Shown piece after piece: positions 5,276 through 17,048 of a DNA stretch of 57,336 nucleotides. The stretch covers positions 1-57,336 of the forward strand of contig SLTB01000080.1 of NCBI GenBank assembly GCA_007130155.1, written 5' to 3'. Each line of letters begins with the position of its first letter. The first letter of the stretch is position 1. The notes under the pieces were generated by a model. The model made no database searches. It saw nothing but the letters and a program-made list of their open reading frames with translations, and was not told the DNA's origin. The translations under genes were made by a program, and so were the position numbers. Source of the DNA: Pseudomonadales bacterium. Its GTDB lineage: Bacteria > Pseudomonadota > Gammaproteobacteria > Pseudomonadales > Azotimanducaceae.

Positions 5276-6472
5276 TCAGGCAAAGCGCTCCGCCAGATAA
5301 GGCGTCAGGAACCGCCCTTCAGGATCCAGCTGGCGCCGATAGCGGCAGAAATCCTGGAACTTCGGGTACAGCGTCGCCAGCGCGGCGCCGTCAAGACTGT
5401 GCTGCTTGCCCCAGTGCGGGCGACCGCCGTGATCACGCAGAATCGGTTCGATGGCGTCGAACAGCGGTCTCGGATCGACATCCGCCGCCTGATGGATGGA
5501 CAGCGTTGCCACCTCGCCGCCCACCGTGGGCGACAGCCAGCCGTCATCGCCTGCGAGCACCCGGTATTCCACCGGCCACATCAGTTTCGGAAAGTCCCGC
5601 AGCATGCGGTTGCGCACCGCCCGGAAGCACTCCGGCGCGGTAGCGACAGGTACCGCATACTCCATCTCGTTGAATTTCAGATCCCGCGTCGAGGGAAAGA
5701 TCTGCCAGGAAGCGCCGAAGCGCTCCCCCTCCTCACCGAAGGGAACCTCCTCCAGGCGGGGCTGCGCGGGAACGTCGATGGCATCCAGGGTCTTGGCAAT
5801 GCAGCGATCCACCCGCGGCACCCACCAGAACTCGTGATGCCGATGACGGCCGAGGCGCAGCTCGAGCTGCTCCAGGCAGGCCTCGACACCTTCCAGATGG
5901 TTGTGTTCATGCAGACCGTAGCTCGGCACCACGGCCAGTTCGATGGCCGTCATCACGCCCAAAAGCCCCAGCGCCACCCGTGCCGCCGCAACGTCGTCCG
6001 CCTGATCCAGGCGCCGGAGGGTCCCTCTGCCGTCCACCAGTTCCACCGCCACCACCTGCGCGGACAGGCTGCCCAGCCTGCGGCCGGTGCCGTGGGTGCC
6101 TGTGGCCACCGCGCCCGCCAGGGTCTGCCGGTCGATGTCACCCATGTTGGCCAGGGCCAGCCCTTCGGCTGCCAGCAGCGGCCCGATGGCGTGCAGCGGC
6201 GTGCCTGCGGCAATGCGGGCGACTTTCCCTGACACGGATTCCAGGCCCGTCAGGTTGCCAAGATCGATCAGCGTGTCGTCGGCCGCCCAGAACGGCACGA
6301 AGGAGTGTCCGCTGCCGTACGCCCGCAGGGCACCCGGCCCCGGATGCCCGGCCACGATGTCGGCCAGTGCCGCCTGATCCGCGGGCCGTTCGATGCGCGC
6401 ATCGGGACAACGAACGCTGCCCGACCAGTTCTGCCAGCTCACCAGCTGCACCCCCGCGCTGTCACCGGCCAC
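5276..6472 (-). CDS. FAD-linked aldonolactone oxidase-like protein (ALO/GULO type)
   Basis: A 398-residue cytoplasmic flavoenzyme. The N-terminal FAD-binding domain has RAYGSGHSFVPF, whose His is the covalent FAD attachment site in this family, and GDIDRQTLAGAVATGTHGTG. The C-terminal domain ends with HWGKQHSLDGAAL and YRRQLDPEGRFLTPYL, typical of D-arabinono-1,4-lactone, L-gulono-lactone and alditol oxidases. Homologues pass electrons from a sugar lactone or polyol to oxygen or another acceptor. The start is GTG at 6472; in-frame GTGs at 6451 and 6442 are alternatives. It overlaps the upstream PLP-enzyme gene by 34 bases. The family is secure, the substrate unknown. Confidence 0.85.
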   Translation of the reverse strand: MAGDSAGVQLVSWQNWSGSVRCPDARIERPADQAALADIVAGHPGPGALRAYGSGHSFVPFWAADDTLIDLGNLTGLESVSGKVARIAAGTPLHAIGPLLAAEGLALANMGDIDRQTLAGAVATGTHGTGRRLGSLSAQVVAVELVDGRGTLRRLDQADDVAAARVALGLLGVMTAIELAVVPSYGLHEHNHLEGVEACLEQLELRLGRHRHHEFWWVPRVDRCIAKTLDAIDVPAQPRLEEVPFGEEGERFGASWQIFPSTRDLKFNEMEYAVPVATAPECFRAVRNRMLRDFPKLMWPVEYRVLAGDDGWLSPTVGGEVATLSIHQAADVDPRPLFDAIEPILRDHGGRPHWGKQHSLDGAALATLYPKFQDFCRYRRQLDPEGRFLTPYLAERFA

Positions 6473-8986: not shown

Positions 8987-9277
8987 AGTGTTTCCGTAAC
9001 CTTCACGGGTGACTGCCAGGCAGCGCGGCGATGGTCGAGTTGTTGTGCGCAACGTCGCAGTTCTTGATAGGCTCCGGTGCGGCGCTCATGACAAAGAGCG
9101 CCGTGAGCCACCTTGCCCGCCACCGGCAACGATTGATCGGGGAATCCCAGGACACTCCGGGAAGCCTGAGCATTCAGGCAAGGTTGGCCTGCCAAGGCAT
9201 CTGCCCTTGAGGGACAGTCTTAAGAGGTGGTGGCGATTGCCGCGGCCAAACACCGACGTAGTGAAGACGATGAGGAG
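8987..9277. other. intergenic region upstream of the antiporter operon
   Basis: These 291 bases hold no convincing gene. A perfect stem-loop, GCCTGA-GCAT-TCAGGC, lies at 9164-9179 and could be the terminator of the EAL-like gene or part of a leader of the antiporter operon. I see no strong sigma-70 promoter by eye, although the operon's promoter should be here. Confidence 0.4.
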
Positions 9278-9766
9278 ATGACGTTGACCCGATACACGGT
9301 CAGCCTGACCCTGGTTCTGGTCGTACTGTGGCTGCTGCTCTCGGGCATGTGGACACACCCGATCCTGCTGCCGCTGGGAGCTGCCTCGGTGGTGCTGACG
9401 GTTTGGCTTTCCCATCGCCTGGGCATCGTCGACCGTGAGAGCGATCCGGTGCACCTGGTGCTGCCGTCCATCAAATACTGGCCCTGGCTCATGGGGCAGA
9501 TCCTGCGCGCCAATGTGCAGGTCGCTGCACGCATTCTCAGTAACCCGAGAGACCTGACGCCACGTCTGGCCCGCGTCCGCTCCACCCAGCAGAGCGATCT
9601 CGGCCGCTCCATCTTCGCCAACTCCATCACCCTGACCCCGGGGACCGTGACCATTCGGGTCAGCGCCGGCGAGATCTTCTATTACGCCATGAGCGATGAC
9701 CTGGTTGCCGATCTCGACGCAGGCGAAATGGATCGGCGGGTGACTCGCCTGGAAAAGGAACTCTGA
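9278..9766 (+). CDS. mrpE: Mrp-type Na+/H+ antiporter subunit E
   Basis: MrpE is a small membrane subunit needed for assembly of the Mrp antiporter. The 162-residue product has two close N-terminal hydrophobic helices (LTLVLVVLWLLLSGMW and LLPLGAASVVLTVWL), then VHLVLPSIKYWPWLMGQILRAN and FANSITLTPGTVTIRV, which are signature stretches of the family. A GAGGAG ribosome site touches the ATG at 9278, so TTG at 9284, six bases from that site, is an alternative start. It is the first gene of the operon and is followed by mrpF after six bases. Confidence 0.92.
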   Translation: MTLTRYTVSLTLVLVVLWLLLSGMWTHPILLPLGAASVVLTVWLSHRLGIVDRESDPVHLVLPSIKYWPWLMGQILRANVQVAARILSNPRDLTPRLARVRSTQQSDLGRSIFANSITLTPGTVTIRVSAGEIFYYAMSDDLVADLDAGEMDRRVTRLEKEL

Positions 9767-9772
9767 TCCGTC

Positions 9773-10063
9773 ATGTTCCTGGCCACCGCCATCGCCATCC
9801 TGGTCACCCTGGCACTCGCCCTGAGTCGAGCGTTCCTCGGCCCGACCATTCATGACCGCATTCTCGCGGTGAACGTGGTGGGCACCAAGACCGTGCTGAT
9901 GATCGCGGTGATCGGCTTCATCACCGGCCGGCCCGAGTTCATCGACATCGCCATCGTCTATGCCCTGCTCAACTACATCGGCATCATCGCTGTGCTGCGG
10001 GTGTTCGAGGTCGGCAGCCTCGCCCAGGCACCGGCAGATGGCGCCGAAGGGGACCCGGACTGA
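9773..10063 (+). CDS. mrpF: Mrp-type Na+/H+ antiporter subunit F
   Basis: A 96-residue protein with three hydrophobic helices and the MrpF motif LGPTIHDRILAVNVVGTK. The later stretch EFIDIAIVYALLNYIG carries the conserved acidic residue of this subunit. In solved complexes the MrpE/F/G group sits beside the MrpA C-terminal part and MrpB. Its stop overlaps the mrpG start (TGATG), so the two are translationally coupled. Confidence 0.93.
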   Translation: MFLATAIAILVTLALALSRAFLGPTIHDRILAVNVVGTKTVLMIAVIGFITGRPEFIDIAIVYALLNYIGIIAVLRVFEVGSLAQAPADGAEGDPD

Positions 10064-10392
10064 TGGCGCTTGCGATCGAAATCTCGAGCTGGGTGCTGCT
10101 GATGGCAGGGTCGGCCCTGCTGATCATCGGCGGCATCGGATTGATCCGGTTCCCGGACTTCTACTCACGGGTGCAGGCCGCCGGCCTAACGGACACCCTC
10201 TGCTCCATTTTCATTCTGACCGGCCTCATGCTGCAGGCGGACAGCGTGCCGCTGGCCGCGAAGATCCTGTTCACGCTGCTGTTCCTGCTGTTCACCGGCC
10301 CGACCGCATCCCATGCGCTGGCCAAGACGGCACACAACGATGGCTTGCGGCCCTGGAAGCGGGATGACGGAGGTGCGCCATCGAATCAATGA
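10063..10392 (+). CDS. mrpG: Mrp-type Na+/H+ antiporter subunit G
   Basis: A 109-residue membrane protein with three predicted helices and the MrpG signature GGIGLIRFPDFYSRVQAAG. Downstream, LTDTLCSIFILTGLML and FTGPTASHALAKTAH continue the family pattern. It overlaps mrpF by one base and the next gene by four (ATGA). Known function: structural subunit of the monovalent cation/proton antiporter complex. Confidence 0.94.
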   Translation: MALAIEISSWVLLMAGSALLIIGGIGLIRFPDFYSRVQAAGLTDTLCSIFILTGLMLQADSVPLAAKILFTLLFLLFTGPTASHALAKTAHNDGLRPWKRDDGGAPSNQ

Positions 10393-10961
10393 TCGACATC
10401 GTCCTGCTGACGTTTCTGGTGGTGGTAGGCATCGCCATCGCTCGTGTCCGCAATCTGCTCGCGGTCACGATGCTCACCGGCATCTACAGCCTGCTCGTGG
10501 CCATGCTGTTCGTCCTGCTCGATGCGGTCGACGTCGCCTTGACCGAAGCTGCCGTCGGCGCCGGGCTGCTCGTGATCCTCATGCTCGCGACCATCTCCCT
10601 GACGACGCGCAAGGAAAAAGTGCATGCCACCCGCCAAAGCATCATGGCGCTCATCGTGGTCACGGTCACCGGGGCTGCCTTGATCTACGCCACCCTGGAC
10701 ATGCCGCGCTTCGGTGATCCGCAGGCGCCTGCCCATGTCCACTTGTCACCCCGCTTCACCCAGGACTCCCCGACGGAGATCGGCATCCCCAACATGGTCA
10801 CCTCGGTCCTTGCGAGCTACCGCGGCATCGATACCCTTGGGGAGGCGGTGGTCATCTTCGCCGCCGCAGTGGGCGTACTGCTCGTCCTCGGCACCGGGAC
10901 CGTTCGCAGGCGCAGGGACCGCAAGGGTGAAGGCGTCGAGGAGGCCGGGGAGAAATCATGA
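10389..10961 (+). CDS. DUF4040 antiporter subunit (MrpA C-terminal / MbhD-MbhE-like)
   Basis: The 190 residues match the two small modules that form the C-terminus of MrpA. The first 90 residues (MIDIVLLTFLVVVGIAIARV and LTEAAVGAGLLVILML) are the DUF4040/MbhD part. The last part (ASYRGIDTLGEAVVIFAAAV) is the MbhE-like part. The 13-14-helix N-terminal half of a full MrpA is absent here; it is probably replaced by one of the later NuoL-like subunits. A non-conserved soluble linker rich in Pro and His (about residues 110-135) joins the modules. Both ends overlap neighbouring genes. Confidence 0.85.
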   Translation: MIDIVLLTFLVVVGIAIARVRNLLAVTMLTGIYSLLVAMLFVLLDAVDVALTEAAVGAGLLVILMLATISLTTRKEKVHATRQSIMALIVVTVTGAALIYATLDMPRFGDPQAPAHVHLSPRFTQDSPTEIGIPNMVTSVLASYRGIDTLGEAVVIFAAAVGVLLVLGTGTVRRRRDRKGEGVEEAGEKS

Positions 10962-11377
10962 ACCAGTACATCGTGCTCCGGGTTGTCAGCAAGCTGATGA
11001 TCCCGGTCATCATGATCTTTGCGCTGTATGTGCAATTCCACGGTGAATACAGTCCCGGTGGGGGATTCCAGGCCGGCATCGTCTTCACCGCCGCATTCAT
11101 CGTCTACACGCTGCTGTTCGGACTCGAGGCTGCACAGAAGGCCGTGCCTCCGGTAGCGGCCCACATCCTGGCCGCATCCGGCGTGCTGCTGTTCATCGCT
11201 TTCGGCTATGCCTCACTGTTCTTGGGCGGCAACTTCCTCGAGTACAAAGTGCTGCTTCCCAACGATCAGGCCGGCGAAACCTTCGGCATCATCGGCATCG
11301 AGCTCGGTGTCGGCATCACCGTGGCAGCCGTGGCTCTGAGCCTGTTTTATTCCTTCGCCGGGCGGGAGCGACGCTGA
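10958..11377 (+). CDS. mrpB: Mrp-type Na+/H+ antiporter subunit B
   Basis: A 139-residue MnhB-family membrane protein with four hydrophobic helices. The hallmark FHGEYSPGGGFQAGIVFTAA is present, followed by FGIIGIELGVGITVAAVA. In the complex it packs between the MrpA C-terminal part and MrpC. Its ATG lies within the upstream stop (ATGA) and its stop overlaps the mrpC start. Confidence 0.94.
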   Translation: MNQYIVLRVVSKLMIPVIMIFALYVQFHGEYSPGGGFQAGIVFTAAFIVYTLLFGLEAAQKAVPPVAAHILAASGVLLFIAFGYASLFLGGNFLEYKVLLPNDQAGETFGIIGIELGVGITVAAVALSLFYSFAGRERR

Positions 11378-11730
11378 TGGAGTGGCTGGGTCACTACAAC
11401 TACTGGGTGGTCGTGGTGCTGATGATGATCGGCTTCTACATCGTCATCGCCCAGGGCAATCTGATCAAGAAACTGGTCGGCCTGAACATCTTCCAGACCT
11501 CGGTCTTCGTTTTCTTCATCAGCCTCGCCTACCTCGAAGACGGCACGGCACCCATCGCACTGGAAGGGGTGAGCGAATACTCGAATCCGCTGCCCCATGT
11601 GCTCATCCTCACCGCCATCGTCGTCGGCGTCGCCCTCACAGCCATGGGCCTGGCCCTGGTGGTCCGCGTCCAGGAGACCTACGGCACCATCGAGGAAGAC
11701 GAGATCCACCAGCAGGATGACTTGCACTGA
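11377..11730 (+). CDS. mrpC: Mrp-type Na+/H+ antiporter subunit C (NuoK-like)
   Basis: A 117-residue, three-helix protein homologous to NuoK of complex I. VVLMMIGFYIVIAQGNLIKK, LVGLNIFQTSVFVFFI and PLPHVLILTAIVVGVALTAM match MrpC/MnhC. Members have acidic residues that take part in proton transfer toward MrpD. It overlaps mrpB and the following gene by one base each. Confidence 0.94.
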   Translation: MEWLGHYNYWVVVVLMMIGFYIVIAQGNLIKKLVGLNIFQTSVFVFFISLAYLEDGTAPIALEGVSEYSNPLPHVLILTAIVVGVALTAMGLALVVRVQETYGTIEEDEIHQQDDLH

Positions 11731-13211
11731 TGCTCGAGCACCTTCCTGCCCTGCAGGTCGCCATCGCGCTGACCGCAGCCCCCCTGGTGATGATGTTCGG
11801 CCGCGCAACGCGCCTGGCCTGGGCCGTGGCCACCCTGGCCTGCTGGGCGAGCCTGGCGGTGGCGCTCATGCTGTTCGTGCAGGTGGCGGATGGATCCGTC
11901 ATCTCCTACGAGATGGGCGGCTGGGCACCACCGTGGGGCATCGAGTATTCCATCGACGCCGCCAACGCCTGGGTCCTGGTCATCATCGGCCTGATCAGCG
12001 CCATCGTCATGCCCTTTGCACGGCAAAGCGTCGAGCAGGAGATCAGCGAGAGCCGCACCGCCCTGTTCTATTCGGCCTTCCTGCTGGCCAATGCCGGCCT
12101 CATCGGCATCACCGTCACGGCGGATGCCTTCAATATTTTCGTGTTCTTCGAGATCTCCGCGCTGGCCTCCTACGCGCTGATTGCCATGGGCCGGGATCGG
12201 CGCGCCATCCTCTCGTCGTTTCAGTACCTGATCATGGGTACCGTGGGCACCACGTTCCTGCTCATCGGGATCGGCTTCCTCTACATCATGACGGGAACGC
12301 TGAACCTCGGTGATCTGGCCGCCCGGCTGCCGGAGGTATCGGACACGCGCACCATCCGGGCCGCCTTCGGCTTCATCGCGGTGGGCATTTCATTGAAGCT
12401 GGCGCTGTTCCCGCTCCACCTGTGGCTGCCGAACGCTTACACCTATGCCCCGTCCATGGTGACCGTGTTCCTGTCGGCCACGGCCACCAAGGTGGCGATC
12501 TATGTCCTGCTGCGCTTCGTCTATACGGTCTTCGGCTTCGAGTTCAGCTTCGTCGAACTGGCCATGGCCTGGCTGCTGATGCCGCTGGCGGTGCTCGGTA
12601 TTTTCATACCGTCCCTGGTGGCCGTCTTTCAGACCAACGTCAAGCGGCTGCTGGCCTATTCCAGCGTCGCCCAGGTCGGGTACATGATCCTCGGCATCAG
12701 CTTCGCCAGCGCCCTCGGTCTGACGGCATCGATCCTGCACCTGTTCAACCATGCCATCACCAAGGCGGCACTGTTCATGGCGGTGGGCTGTCTGGTCTAC
12801 CGCCTTGGGGGTGTCTCCCTGACGCAGCTCGCCGGTGCCGGACAGCGTATGCCATGGACCATGGCTGCCTTCGTCGTGGCGGGCTTAAGCCTCATCGGCA
12901 TCCCTCTGACCGCCGGCTTCGTGACCAAGTGGCACCTGCTACAGGCAGCCCTTGAAGGTGGCCTCTGGCCCATCGCGGTCTTCCTCCTCGGCACTTCGTT
13001 GCTGGCGGCGCTGTACATCTGGAAGGTGGTGGAAGTGGCCTACTTCCAGGAGCCTGAGAACCCGGACACCGCTGTGAGTGAAGCGCCGCTGGGCATGCTG
13101 ATTCCGACCCTCGTCCTGACGGCATCCACCGTGGTCTTCGGCGTCTTCGGCAACTTCACCGTTGCCAGCGCCCAGACTGCGGCTGCCGTACTCATGGGAG
13201 CTGCCCCATGA
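11730..13211 (+). CDS. mrpD: Mrp-type antiporter subunit D (proton-conducting, NuoM/N-like)
   Basis: A 493-residue protein of about 14 membrane helices from the Complex I/Mrp antiporter family. The key acidic residue of helix 5 is in FFEISALASYALIA. The helix-7 lysine is in SLKLALFPLHLWLPNAY, the helix-8 lysine in SATATKVAIY, and the helix-12 lysine in GFVTKWHL. These form the proton half-channels. It is the first of three such subunits here and the best match to MrpD by position after mrpC. It overlaps the next antiporter gene by four bases. Confidence 0.92.
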   Translation: MLEHLPALQVAIALTAAPLVMMFGRATRLAWAVATLACWASLAVALMLFVQVADGSVISYEMGGWAPPWGIEYSIDAANAWVLVIIGLISAIVMPFARQSVEQEISESRTALFYSAFLLANAGLIGITVTADAFNIFVFFEISALASYALIAMGRDRRAILSSFQYLIMGTVGTTFLLIGIGFLYIMTGTLNLGDLAARLPEVSDTRTIRAAFGFIAVGISLKLALFPLHLWLPNAYTYAPSMVTVFLSATATKVAIYVLLRFVYTVFGFEFSFVELAMAWLLMPLAVLGIFIPSLVAVFQTNVKRLLAYSSVAQVGYMILGISFASALGLTASILHLFNHAITKAALFMAVGCLVYRLGGVSLTQLAGAGQRMPWTMAAFVVAGLSLIGIPLTAGFVTKWHLLQAALEGGLWPIAVFLLGTSLLAALYIWKVVEVAYFQEPENPDTAVSEAPLGMLIPTLVLTASTVVFGVFGNFTVASAQTAAAVLMGAAP

Positions 13212-14677
13212 GCGATGCCACCATGATCGCACTGCCACTGCTGGTGCCCCTGGTCGGGCTGCTGCTGATTGTCGCCAGCGGCCGGGTGGCCGCCCTGCGG
13301 GATGCCGTCACGGTGGTCACCGCCGCGACCATGTTCACCGCAGTACTGCAGTTGCTGCCGCGGGTCAGCGCCGGGGAGCGACCACGCCTGGAACTCTTCG
13401 AGTTCTTCCCGGGCCTCGGCATCACCTTCGAAGTCGAACCGCTGGGCATGGTGTTCGCCCTGCTCGCTTCCGGTCTCTGGATCATCACCGCGATCTACGC
13501 CATCGGCTACATGCGCGGTGCCAAGGAGAAGCATCACACCCGCTTCCATGCGTTCTTTGCCGTGGCGCTGTTCAGCGCCACCGGCATCGCGTTCGCAGGC
13601 AACATGCTGACCCTGTTCGTGTTCTACGAAGTGCTGACGCTGTCGACCTACCCGCTGGTCGCCCACAAGGGCAGTGAGGTGGCGAAGCGTGGTGCCCGCA
13701 CCTACCTGGGCCTGCTGCTCGGCACATCCGTAGGCTTCCTGCTGATGGCCATCCTGCTCACCTGGTGGCTGGCCGGGACCCTGGACTTCACGCCCGGCGG
13801 CATCATGGCCGGGACCGTCGATCCGGCCTACGGCAGCATCCTTCTGGTCCTGTTCCTCTACGGGATCGGCAAGGCCGCCCTGATGCCCTTCCACCGCTGG
13901 CTGCCGGCGGCGATGGTGGCACCGACGCCGGTCTCTGCACTGCTCCATGCGGTGGCGGTGGTGAAAGCTGGCGTCTTCACGGTGCTGAAGGTCACGGTCT
14001 ATCTGTTCGGACTCGACTATCTGACCGAACTCTGGACCAGCGATGTGATGCTCTACATCGCCGTGTTCACACTGCTTACCGCCTCGCTGGTGGCCCTGAG
14101 GCAGGACAATCTGAAGGCGCGGCTGGCCTACTCCACCGTGAGTCAGCTGTCCTACATCGTCGTGGGCGCCATGCTGGTGAACAGCATCGCTGCCCTCGGC
14201 GGCAGCATGCACATCGTCATGCATGCCTTCGGCAAGATCACCCTGTTCTTCTGCGCCGGCGCCATCTATGTGGCCACCAAGAAGACCGAGATCAGCGACA
14301 TGGACGGTCTCGGGCGACGCATGCCCTTCACCTATGCCGCCTTTTTCATCGGCGCCCTGTGCGTGATCGGCATCCCGCCCCTCGGCGGCGTCTGGAGCAA
14401 GTGGCACCTGATGTCGGGTGCCTTCGATGCAGGCTATGGTCTGGTGGTGATTGCGCTGATGATCAGCACGCTTTTGAACATCGGCTACCTCATTCCGCCG
14501 GTCGTTCGCGGCTTCCTGCTGCCGTCGAAGGACGGCGAGGAAACCGGTATGCGGGAGGCACCCCTGCTCTGCGTACTGCCGCTGTCGTTGACCGCACTGG
14601 GCTGCCTCATCCTGTTCGTCGCAGCGAAACCGCTGGCGGAACTCCTCAGCGGCATGCTCGTCGTGCCGGTTCCCTGA
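13208..14677 (+). CDS. second Mrp-type proton antiporter subunit (NuoL/MrpA-N or MrpD-like)
   Basis: A 489-residue polytopic protein of the NuoL/M/N family. The helix-5 Glu is in FVFYEVLTLSTYPLVAHKG. LMPFHRWLPAAMVAPTPVSA and LLHAVAVVKAGVF match the NuoL/MrpA type more closely than the first subunit does, and GGVWSKWHLM carries the distal lysine. It may supply the channel normally given by the N-terminal half of MrpA. It overlaps the upstream mrpD by four bases. After it, the operon is interrupted by a 271-bp palindromic element. Confidence 0.88.
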   Translation: MSDATMIALPLLVPLVGLLLIVASGRVAALRDAVTVVTAATMFTAVLQLLPRVSAGERPRLELFEFFPGLGITFEVEPLGMVFALLASGLWIITAIYAIGYMRGAKEKHHTRFHAFFAVALFSATGIAFAGNMLTLFVFYEVLTLSTYPLVAHKGSEVAKRGARTYLGLLLGTSVGFLLMAILLTWWLAGTLDFTPGGIMAGTVDPAYGSILLVLFLYGIGKAALMPFHRWLPAAMVAPTPVSALLHAVAVVKAGVFTVLKVTVYLFGLDYLTELWTSDVMLYIAVFTLLTASLVALRQDNLKARLAYSTVSQLSYIVVGAMLVNSIAALGGSMHIVMHAFGKITLFFCAGAIYVATKKTEISDMDGLGRRMPFTYAAFFIGALCVIGIPPLGGVWSKWHLMSGAFDAGYGLVVIALMISTLLNIGYLIPPVVRGFLLPSKDGEETGMREAPLLCVLPLSLTALGCLILFVAAKPLAELLSGMLVVPVP

Positions 14678-14716
14678 AACGGAGTTCGCCACTCATTCAG
14701 AGGTGATCGAGATGGA

Positions 14717-14987
14717 CCTAGTGTCATGTCACCCCTCCTTTGCCGCATCAGAGCCTGCCAGGGAGTCCAGGGCAAGGCAGGTCGGCGAAGGCATAGTGGG
14801 CCTATGTCGAGTCGGCCTAACACAGCCATGGGCTCCCTGGCAGGCTCCCAGAGGGCAGGCCCACAAAGCGCGCTCTGCTTTGTTGCTTCCCCTTGACGTA
14901 GGCCCACTACGCCTGCGGGAAAGCGTCGCGCAGAGCGCGCTTTGTGGGCCTGCTGATATGACAAAGGAGGGGTGACATGACACTAGG
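14717..14987. mobile_element. MITE-like palindromic element with 26-bp perfect terminal inverted repeats
   Basis: The 26 bases at 14717-14742 (starting CCTAGTGTCATGTCACCC) are the exact reverse complement of 14962-14987. Inside are two more perfect inverted pairs: 14855-14878 with 14930-14953 (24 bp) and 14752-14765 with 14833-14846 (14 bp). An imperfect pair lies around 14791-14810 and 14893-14911. There is no transposase gene, which fits a miniature inverted-repeat element. I see no clear target-site duplication. The right arm contains AAAGGAGGGG and the ATG of the next gene. Confidence 0.7.
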
Positions 14988-15228
14988 CAAATGGCTGGAA
15001 GTGCTGGTGAACAACGGCGTGGTGCTGCGACGCATCATGTACGTGTTCCTGGCCGGACTCGTCATCGCCGATCTGCTGATTCCGTCCAGTTATGACCGCT
15101 TCCCCTGGGAAAGCTGGGGTGGTTTCGGCGCCGCTTACGGGTTTTTAGGCTGCCTTCTGCTCATCGGCATCGCCAAGGCACTCGGGCACTGGCTCGTGTA
15201 TCGCAGCGAGGACTACTACGATGACTGA
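14977..15228 (+). CDS. small two-helix membrane protein of the antiporter operon
   Basis: An 83-residue product with two hydrophobic helices, IMYVFLAGLVIADLLI and AAYGFLGCLLLIGIAKALG, a central YDRFPWESWGGFG stretch and an acidic SEDYYDD tail. I do not recognise a named family. A gene of this kind sits naturally between antiporter subunits, and its stop overlaps the next subunit by eight bases, so a role in the complex is inferred. Its ribosome site (AAAGGAGGGG at 14963-14972) and first codons lie in the right inverted repeat of the palindromic element. The native start may therefore have been altered. Confidence 0.75.
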   Translation: MTLGKWLEVLVNNGVVLRRIMYVFLAGLVIADLLIPSSYDRFPWESWGGFGAAYGFLGCLLLIGIAKALGHWLVYRSEDYYDD

Positions 15229-16903
15229 CGTCCTGCACCCCTCGCTGCTGCTGTTCTTCGGCGCCGCGGTGGTGGCACTTTTGCGCGGGCGCCTGCAGCA
15301 GGCGTGGATGCTGCTGCTGCCGGCCGGCGTCCTCGCCATGGTGTTCTCGCTGCCGCTGGGCAGCGCTGGCGCGATGAATCTGTTCGGTATGGAACTGCTC
15401 ATCCTGCGCGTGGACACGCTGAGCATGGTCTTCGCCACCGTGTTCGCCATCATCACCCTCATTGGCGCCCTCTACGCCCTGCACGTGAGGGACACCACCC
15501 AGCACGTCGCCGCGCTGACCTACGCGGGCGCGGCCCTCGGCGTGGTGTTCGCCGGTGACCTCATCACCCTCTACGTATTCTGGGAACTGATGGTCTTCAG
15601 CTCCGTGTGGCTGATCTGGTGCCGGCGCAACCCGGTGTCCATGGCCGCCGGCTTCCGCTACCTGATCATCCATGCCCTCGGTGGCGTCGTCCTGCTCGGC
15701 GGCATCATTCTCCACTTCCTCGATGTGGGCTCCGTCGCCTTCGACGCCATCGCAAGCGACAGCGCCGGGTACTACCTCATCCTCATCGGATTCATGGTCA
15801 ATGCGGCGGTTCCGCCGCTGCACGCGTGGCTGACCGACGCCTATCCGGAAGCCACGGTGACCGGTGCGATTTTCCTCTCCGCGCTGACGACGAAGACCGC
15901 GATCTACACCCTGATCCGAGGTTTCCCGGGCGCGGAGCTCCTCGTTGGCTTCGGTCTGGTCATGGCCCTCTATGGCGTGATCTATGCGTTCCTCGCCAAT
16001 GACATCCGCAGACTGCTCGCCTACCACATCATCAGTCAGGTCGGTTACATGGTGACGGGCATTGGCCTCGGCACCATCATGGCGCTCAATGGTACGGCTT
16101 CCCACGCCTTCACCCACATCCTCTACAAGGCGCTGCTGTTCATGGGCGCCGGCGCCGTCATCCACATGACCGGCCGCGCCAAGATGACGGAACTCGGCGG
16201 ACTCTACCGCTACATGCCCATCACGTTCCTGCTGTACATGATCGGCGGCCTGTCGATCTCGGCCTTCCCGCTGACCAGCGGCTTCGTCAGCAAGACCATG
16301 ATCCTGGAAGCGGCGGCGCTGGATCAGCGCGCCATCGTCTGGCTGCTGCTGGCACTGGTATCGGTGGGTACCTTCCTCTCCACGGTCCTGAAGATTCCCT
16401 GGTTCGCCTTCCTGGGTCAGGATTCCGGACTGAGGCCCAAGGAAGCGCCCTGGAACATGCTGCTGGCCATGGGCATCGCGGCGTTCCTGTGCATCTACAT
16501 CGGCATCTTCCCAGGCTGGCTCTACTCGCTGATGCCGGCGCCTGTGGACTACAACGCCTACACCGTCGGCCATGTGCTCTGGGAGCTGCAGCTGCTGCTG
16601 TTCGCCGGGGTCGGGTTCTTCCTGCTGCTGAAGTACGTGGGCGGCAAGCCGAAGATCAGCCTCGACACGGATTGGCTCTACCGCTGGCTGCTGCCGAAGG
16701 TCGCCCTGAGCGCAGAACGTCTGGTGGACAGCTTGTGGAGTCGCATGCTCGGTGGCCTGATGCGGCGGCTGACGTGGCTGGTGACCACCTTGATTCAGCA
16801 CCACGGGCCTCAAGGCATCCTTGCCAGAACCTGGCCGACCGGCAGCATGGTGCTCTGGGTGGCCGTGATGCTGGCGGCGTCGCTGCTGGTGTATTACCTG
16901 TAG
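15221..16903 (+). CDS. third Mrp-type proton antiporter subunit with C-terminal extension
   Basis: A 560-residue NuoM/N/L-family protein. The helix-5 Glu is in YVFWELMVFSSVWLIW; VNAAVPPLHAWLTDAYPEA and SALTTKTAIYTLIRG cover helices 7-8, and GFVSKTMILEAAAL has the distal lysine. After the antiporter core it has about 130 extra residues, with KPKISLDTDWLYRWLLPKVA, an amphipathic helical stretch and a final helix (VLWVAVMLAASLLVYYL). This arrangement recalls the lateral arm of NuoL. It is the last gene of the operon and overlaps the small membrane protein by eight bases. Confidence 0.88.
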   Translation: MTDVLHPSLLLFFGAAVVALLRGRLQQAWMLLLPAGVLAMVFSLPLGSAGAMNLFGMELLILRVDTLSMVFATVFAIITLIGALYALHVRDTTQHVAALTYAGAALGVVFAGDLITLYVFWELMVFSSVWLIWCRRNPVSMAAGFRYLIIHALGGVVLLGGIILHFLDVGSVAFDAIASDSAGYYLILIGFMVNAAVPPLHAWLTDAYPEATVTGAIFLSALTTKTAIYTLIRGFPGAELLVGFGLVMALYGVIYAFLANDIRRLLAYHIISQVGYMVTGIGLGTIMALNGTASHAFTHILYKALLFMGAGAVIHMTGRAKMTELGGLYRYMPITFLLYMIGGLSISAFPLTSGFVSKTMILEAAALDQRAIVWLLLALVSVGTFLSTVLKIPWFAFLGQDSGLRPKEAPWNMLLAMGIAAFLCIYIGIFPGWLYSLMPAPVDYNAYTVGHVLWELQLLLFAGVGFFLLLKYVGGKPKISLDTDWLYRWLLPKVALSAERLVDSLWSRMLGGLMRRLTWLVTTLIQHHGPQGILARTWPTGSMVLWVAVMLAASLLVYYL

Positions 16904-16952
16904 CGGGCCGGCGAGGAATTTGTCGAGCGGCCCGACCGCCAGTCCCTTCCAG

Positions 16953-17048
16953 ATCGAAATCGAAATCGGGATCGGGATCGGAATCGGGATCGGAATCGGA
17001 ATCGGGATCGGAATCGGGATCGGGATCGGAATCGGAATCGGAATTGGG
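16953..17048. repeat. hexanucleotide tandem repeat, 16 units of ATCGRR
   Basis: Sixteen six-base units read ATCGAA, ATCGGG or ATCGGA in mixed order, the last being ATTGGG. The tract lies between the stop of the last antiporter gene and the stop of sohB, which converge. A six-base unit keeps every frame open, producing meaningless Gly-Ile or Ser-Asp translations. It is a simple-sequence tract that could vary in length by slippage. Confidence 0.9.

Follow-up and report, generated by a model that had tools for sequence, protein, structure and literature searches.

A Mrp/Mnh-type antiporter operon, recognised with Pfam and NCBIfam, occupies about 9227-16903 of the window (the whole stretch of 57,336 nucleotides that was analysed). 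A palindromic element lies within it, between the gene of an antiporter subunit and a gene of 83 residues. The features of the locus are as follows.

13208-14677, + strand: upstream antiporter subunit, Proton_antipo_M (Pfam, E 1.2e-54)
14700-14714, + strand: native Shine-Dalgarno GAGGTGATC and native ATG (14712-14714), now severed from the gene; identical GAGGTGATCGAGATG in the sister L007
14712-14975, + strand: leader frame of native ATG-GAC-CTA, then 84 MITE codons, then TGA at 14973-14975 (translation, stop scan)
14719-14720, unstranded: TA target duplication, left copy, in CTAG; the joined flanks ATGGACCTAGGC match ATGGATCTGGGC of the sister
14719-14751, + strand: left terminal inverted repeat with TA, complement of the new ribosome site, resembling IS630-family ends
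14721-14983, unstranded: the MITE proper, two-hairpin and IS630-type, 263 bp (inverted repeats, empty site of the sister, match to a covariance model with this copy in its training set)
14751-14847, unstranded: inner hairpin 1, arms 14751-14773 and 14825-14847; the two-hairpin layout is also found in relatives
14855-14953, unstranded: inner hairpin 2, arms 14855-14878 and 14930-14953; basis of the covariance model R1
14953-14985, - strand: right terminal inverted repeat with TA, reading outward on the + strand AAAGGAGGGG-TGAC-ATG-ACA-CTA
14963-14979, + strand: replacement Shine-Dalgarno AAAGGAGG, 6-nt spacer and ATG (14977-14979), in the right tip of the MITE
14977-15228, + strand: 83-residue gene, MTLGKW... 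here and MDLGKW... in the sister; its end overlaps the next gene
14984-14985, unstranded: TA target duplication, right copy (joined flanks as for the left copy)
15221-16903, + strand: downstream antiporter subunit D (Pfam E 1.5e-46; NF009310 above cut-off), its ATG within the 3' end of the 83-residue gene

The 83-residue gene is flanked by those of two large membrane subunits. Its protein has no family in Pfam or NCBIfam and was detected in 12 of 38 genomes (its own and relatives); apart from its own, five of the 12 are congeners and six are more distantly related. Together with its relatives (L007-L017), it is a candidate for an unnamed Mrp accessory subunit. Directly after the last antiporter gene lies a tandem array of about 15 copies of the 6-bp unit ATCGGA (16952-17044).

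Structure and origin of the palindromic element

The sequences at 14717-14742 and 14962-14987 are exact inverted copies of 26 bp within a longer repeat of 35 nt (91%), of which they form the core; the outer C/G of these ends is target DNA outside the element proper. A search for the 24-nt end with up to three mismatches allowed gives two places in the window, where shuffles predict 0.00, and the element strand is predicted to fold at -200 kcal/mol against a shuffle mean of -117 (z = -15.3). Only short frames, and no transposase gene, lie inside the 263 bp, and an Rfam search of the element returned microRNA models only, below gathering scores, which were regarded as noise. An earlier note, made from the sequence of the window, had described perfect 26-bp ends with perfect inner pairs of 24 and 14 bp in an element at 14717-14987. 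The ends are exactly as it had them, as is the 24-bp pair (14855-14878 and 14930-14953); the shorter pair is really 15 bp, the perfect outer part of the hairpin 1 arms, which are 23 nt long at 91%; and the palindrome, itself real, narrows to an element proper of 14721-14983 beside a TA pair that is the target duplication.

The empty site of the sister reads gaggtgatcgag ATG GAT CTG GGC AAA TGG, whereas the window reads gaggtgatcgag ATG GAC C-TA, then the element, then TA-GGC AAA TGG; the other four congeners start the gene with ATG GAT (CTA or GTA) GG(C/A). All five sampled congeners lack the element and begin the gene with MD(L/V)G, and element DNA was matched in its own genome only, among the six genomes of the genus. 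It follows from a comparison of the starts that the 263-bp element went into codon 3 at the TA of a CTAG, with duplication of that TA, as the empty site demonstrates. On this sequence comparison, the palindrome is an insertion of mobile DNA and not a native switch. Since the left arm is perfectly complementary to the ribosome site, the arms could be taken instead for an evolved translational switch of the antiporter operon; that is scarcely credible, as the arms are missing in five of five sampled congeners, the empty site contradicts the idea, the TA duplication sits precisely at the element edges and related elements are found at unrelated genes. The earlier proposal of a mobile element is thus upheld by the empty site, the five congeners without it and the dispersed related elements, and of the two outcomes that had been named as speaking for a native hairpin, a single copy and the same arms in relatives, only the former was seen: no further copy with these ends was found in the assembly, but the relatives are without the arms.

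Start replacement and its proposed translation

Read outward, the right tip gives AAAGGAGG-GGTGAC-ATG-ACA-CTA and runs in frame into GGC AAA TGG, by which the native ATG-GAC-CTA-GGC has become ATG-ACA-CTA-GGC with the protein kept at 83 residues and a single change, D2T. Since the tip carries a Shine-Dalgarno, a 6-nt spacer and an ATG in the phase of the gene, a protein of 83 residues with one of them changed can still be encoded. The sequence supports the view that the insertion cut the gene off from its own ribosome site and start, for which the right tip provides replacements. With the native Shine-Dalgarno and ATG intact upstream, a second frame of 87 codons leads through the element to the TGA at 14973-14975, ending 1 nt before the new ATG at 14977, which is the spacing of a coupled pair. 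Either orientation of the element leaves this read-in frame open; the share of structure-preserving shuffles that did as well was 16% for the present orientation, 20% for the opposite one and 4.8% for the two together, so that the openness is suggestive only. A scan of 14500-15200 for promoters and terminators found no promoter-like site and a sole terminator-like site at 15117-15136, outside the element; promoter donation by the element is therefore not favoured.

Opening the new Shine-Dalgarno and ATG is predicted to cost 36.3 kcal/mol in the full RNA, against 1.9-4.6 kcal/mol without the left arm or with everything upstream covered. For the native Shine-Dalgarno and ATG the predicted cost is 6.7 kcal/mol with the full RNA folded and 10.5 for a transcript of 91 nt, both to be set against 8.3 in the sister. 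These results bear on the remaining claims of the earlier note, which had placed AAAGGAGGGG and the ATG-ACA-CTA of the 83-residue frame (14977-15228) in the right end, made that repeat the donor of the start site, and suggested a hidden ribosome site and a translational switch. The motif and codons are present and the donor role has the support of the sequence, but the native start and Shine-Dalgarno just left of the element had been overlooked. The hiding of the ribosome site holds by calculation only (36.3 against 1.9-4.6 kcal/mol without the left arm), and the switch does not hold, the native start being about as accessible as that of the sister and its frame extending across all of the element and stopping 1 nt short of the new ATG. 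As a whole, the observation is confirmed, with both mobile element and start donation borne out; the switch is unsupported, because an accessible native start and a frame to a stop so placed make constitutive coupling, in our view, the simpler reading of the layout.

The proposed course of events begins with the insertion of a non-autonomous IS630/Tc1-type MITE into the third codon of an accessory gene of the Mrp-type operon, at the TA of a CTAG. Ribosomes would then initiate at the untouched native ATG and translate 87 codons through the element, passing the left arm, melting the hairpin and thereby freeing the right tip, before stopping at the TGA 1 nt upstream of the new ATG. The exposed site would be used by the same or by new ribosomes, and it is from this modelled arrangement that we infer translational coupling as the mechanism by which the downstream start is used.

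Two other accounts of the locus have to be weighed. According to the one, the MITE inactivates the 83-residue gene, the in-frame start in the tip being a one-in-three coincidence of phase and the hairpin silencing that start. The predicted burial of the new ribosome site at 36 kcal/mol suits this account, and so does the chance that the divergence from the sister is old: the orthologues are 99% identical, with eight synonymous and no non-synonymous differences over codons 4-83, all of which may have arisen before the insertion. We nevertheless consider it unlikely, given that the frame is intact without amino-acid change in those codons, that the native start is about as accessible as that of the sister and is read through the left arm, and that the same start replacement recurs in a second copy from another genus (L133, below). 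Moreover, the next antiporter gene starts within the end of the 83-residue gene, so that its translation might also suffer if that of the latter were lost. The other account dispenses with coupling: RNase III would cut the long mRNA duplex, free the right tip and so make the new ribosome site active. In its favour are the fold of -200 kcal/mol and the action of RNase III on transcripts of the Neisseria NEMIS MITEs, which the excerpted source describes as proposed (PMC2229807); cuts in the inner hairpins, on the other hand, would presumably leave a terminal duplex that still hides the site, and we rate this release as quite improbable. Coupling through the frame from the native ATG is retained as the preferred reading.

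Relatives of the element and the sites they occupy

The exact 15-nt end GTGACATGACACTAG is found in three of 206 genomes of the family, its own, G001 and G156, of which the last two each have a match to an IS630-type transposase. The match directly adjoins the exact end in G156; in G001 the end TAGTGTCATGTCA stands beside it and the exact 15-nt end follows 2.5 kb further on the same contig. The ends of the window element are also like those of IS630-type elements met with a loosened end pattern (below): a 1.2-kb insertion sequence (L036) has 31-nt arms, 77% complementary, around frames with DDE_3 and HTH domains (DDE_3 at E 3e-31), and L034, similar to it, has DDE_3 at E 7e-30. No match to an IS630 transposase or DDE_3 was obtained in the genome of the element itself, the assembly of which is 98% complete in 356 contigs, so that this lack is not decisive. 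A resident transposase in the genome is not strictly defining for an IS630-type MITE.

Searches of the same genome by DNA and by end pattern yielded the element itself and one distant related hairpin only, two further end matches at two mismatches being at the level of the control (three matches in the reversed control). The related hairpin is part of a palindromic element on contig C128 (L003 1443-1606; G000:C128, hairpin match 5306-5413), which has other 23-nt ends (AAGGAAGCGCTGACCAATTCGCC), shares the inner hairpin core with the window element and, by eye, is apparently inside a HAD-hydrolase-like reading frame. The full 24-nt end had no copy in the other genomes searched apart from one lone end with three mismatches in G215, and the exact tip of the window element has thus been seen once. 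That lone end (L026 1500-1540; L040 from 4994; JAPPDJ010000166.1) has 21 of 24 matches to the terminal repeat, had no partner end found and lies between genes resembling, by eye, those of PdxA and glutamine synthetase. Longer end patterns in samples of the order and class returned the own genome alone (1/390 and 1/369). Among genome contigs, the 25-nt end gave no match and a loosened end pattern gave 13 stretches (10 Fulvivirga and one Croceivirga MAG contigs, one Bacteroidales MAG and one gammaproteobacterial MAG), 12 of them in MAGs named as Bacteroidota. There were no matches for shortened and loosened ends in viral contigs, for the window stretch in plasmids, or for the relative L082 in plasmids and phages.

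The interior of the element (14752-14952) has matches in 12 of the 206 family genomes including its own, some of them partial. Eight of these matches are full elements of 266-286 bp (TA to TA), whose ends, about 33 nt long and mostly starting TAGTG, vary in sequence and whose two inner hairpins measure about 96-115 bp. A covariance model, R1, was built on hairpin 2 from nine sequences, the window copy included, and under stricter filters matched 34 of 206 family genomes and 16 of 37 genera. Of 107 places read, 26 were dropped for unclear ends and some matches at contig edges were left unread; recognisable terminal inverted repeats bound the remaining 81, of which 59 measure 261-286 bp and 58 have the flanks C|TA..TA|G. 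By its architecture, and not by its exact ends, the element can thus be placed in a dispersed two-hairpin MITE superfamily. The terminal repeats of the 81 elements (L112, L153 and L197, for example) vary widely, including TAGTGCTCC, TAGTGGTCG, TAGTGTCGTG and TAGGGAGCC amongst others, and the hairpin cores stay alignable despite this, as though ends had been swapped to suit different transposases. That the family conserves a translated frame across the element was considered and rejected: frame 2 is the most open (of 76 strands from 38 non-redundant elements, 62% are open over 60% of the length, where the other frames reach 45% and 37% and shuffled interiors 20-30%), but it is broken early in some copies and in L133, and is a hint only.

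The sites of insertion were assessed with one home-made gene caller, the starts of which are uncertain, on joined flanks and on a null of CTAG sites in 799 kb from 12 of the same genomes; seven of the 81 elements were dropped for short flanks, leaving 74, and null sites less than 600 nt from the ends of stretches were dropped, leaving 446. No two of the 74 sites share flanks. Inserts inside genes are few (8 of 74, against 196 of 446 in the null). At the non-coding sites, a called start lies within -12 to +15 nt in 27 of 66 against 25 of 250 null sites (p 3e-8; 1e-7 excluding L133, which counts through a called start at +15, its native start being read at -7), a TAG stop lies exactly at the site in 39 of 66 against 52 of 250 (p 5e-9), and both coincide in 17 of 66 against 12 of 250. 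CTAG targets alone give 19 of 48 start-adjacent sites and 29 of 48 TAG stops. In all 41 stop cases (39 sites) the TA and the first base G of the element regenerate TAG, with a co-directed start following in 17; at L148 and L155 two convergent called genes use one target as both TAG stops, and the element regenerates both. Gene starts touched by copies include those of aspartokinase (L093), succinyl-CoA synthetase/SucC (L089), ribosomal proteins L2 (L153) and S5 (L154), HemD (L172), an Rnf/Nqr subunit (L197) and a RecN/SMC-like protein (L198), the names being given partly by eye. Thirty neighbouring proteins were compared with Pfam, and 29 matched at E <= 1e-5; from the start-adjacent set of 27 genes, 23 were included (L091, L140, L146 and L177 were left out) and 22 matched at that level, L145 having none. 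A Shine-Dalgarno-like energy of -4 kcal/mol or below precedes the start after insertion in 18 of 27 cases, compared with 38% of random 14-mers (p 0.002), a measure that is crude given that the joined native sequence reaches it in 13 of 27.

As part of the joint explanation given below, the superfamily appears concentrated at stop and start codons, with a TAG tip that restores the stop and an outward tip that is often Shine-Dalgarno-like. A further step would be to regard it as adapted to operons, the TAG tip regenerating the stop and the outward tip acting as a portable ribosome site, in some cases with a start codon (ATG or GTG) at 9 nt from the end; both neighbours would then stay translatable after an insertion into codon 3 or at C^TAG junctions, with a translated or sequestering hairpin added between them. 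This is put forward tentatively, as possible but rather doubtful. We see about an even chance that the enrichment reflects survivorship or target preference only and that the tips were never selected as translation signals: 58 of the 81 copies have CTAG flanks, insertions at other places would be harmful and survivors in gene-dense genomes fall between genes, and selection for a Shine-Dalgarno in start-adjacent tips was tried and rejected, these being no more Shine-Dalgarno-like than other tips of the superfamily (p 0.73). Against this stand the way in which the enrichment was scored, on non-coding sites only and with CTAG sites from 12 of the same genomes as the null, the inclusion in the enriched zone of the gap between Shine-Dalgarno and start, where an insert would normally be harmful, and the 18 of 27 Shine-Dalgarno-like starts against 38% of random 14-mers, by the crude measure above.

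Five inserts lie just inside a gene start. Three are weak cases (L138, L146 and L168), and only the window copy and L133 have both a strong coding frame and, at -9 in the tip, an ATG or GTG in frame. L133 comes from genome G205, in another genus; its element occupies the identical motif, ATG-GAC-C^TA-GGC, in a gene whose product has an O-antigen ligase domain; we read the ATG of that motif as the native start, from the L133 sequence alone, the gene caller having picked a GTG 15 nt inside rather than the ATG. Its tip reads GAGGG-TTGAC-GTG-ACA-CTA-GGC, turning MDLGRTDR into VTLGRTDR at equal length, and its left TA is mutated to TG. The hidden site is predicted to need 45 kcal/mol to open, and 7.3 without the left tip. 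The read-in frame meets a premature TAG after 71 codons, a point against selected tips and against the explanation preferred here; these codons still span the left arm, so that RNA unfolding fits better than reinitiation by the same ribosome. Taken jointly, a MITE insertion with its start supplied by the tip, translational coupling as proposed above and a two-hairpin superfamily concentrated at gene junctions is probably the best explanation of these findings.

Significance and comparison with known systems

Should this explanation be true, transposon tips would be movable translation start (and stop) signals for existing genes, an added route by which new start sites and couplings could arise, and the persistence of strong-hairpin elements in mid-operon, including beside the frames of ribosomal proteins S5 and L2, would be explained in part. 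The most interesting aspect may be the family-wide position at stops and starts along with two matched start replacements. In the open-access literature, as far as excerpted, no MITE end was found that provides a pre-existing gene, once entered, with its ribosome site and start codon, nor any junction-enriched MITE family of two-hairpin layout; the MITE effects given there are promoters, RNA processing, small RNAs, added peptides and new ORFs.

IS630/ISY100 elements of the Tc1/mariner type share with the present element the TA duplication, and its terminal inverted repeats are similar to those of elements with DDE_3; it differs in having no transposase and in ends joined by hairpins. A CTAG target preference of IS630, a further shared feature, was reportedly the subject of a 1991 paper by Tenzen and Ohtsubo, to go by its title (as cited in PMC2170065). 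Translational coupling, according to the excerpted sources, involves short stop-start distances, Shine-Dalgarno motifs and unfolding dependent on upstream translation (PMC6728339, PMC10666635, PMC12548453). The gene pairs described in these extracts resemble the present case in a stop and start 1 nt apart, a Shine-Dalgarno before the start and its pairing with upstream translated sequence; here, however, both arms and the leader frame derive from a transposable element, and coupling is proposed from sequence and folding.

The RUP repeat of Streptococcus pneumoniae, 107 bp long and proposed to be mobilised by IS630-Spn1, is likewise short, with a TA target and terminal inverted repeats resembling an IS630 element, a likeness drawn by description only (PMC3049150, PMC2229807); the present element is about 265 bp with two inner hairpins, and donation of a start codon or ribosome site is not described for RUP in these excerpts. 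Closer in effect is BOX of the same species, a small repeat that encodes the start codon of an expressed ORF with its stop beyond the repeat (PMC3049150). The BOX ORFs are reported in that extract to match hypothetical proteins only and to be without good Shine-Dalgarno candidates, whereas the start and Shine-Dalgarno of the present element stand before a conserved gene that already existed and that keeps its native length. Rickettsia palindromic elements and other intragenic MITEs are also palindromic repeats that enter genes with protein synthesis kept, and in the excerpted accounts they add an in-frame peptide or extend an ORF (PMC10969869, PMC2229807, PMC5896051). The in-frame fused peptide that is the criterion of a Rickettsia palindromic element is absent here, for the leader ends at the TGA and the gene restarts at the new ATG: the present element fuses nothing and replaces the start site.
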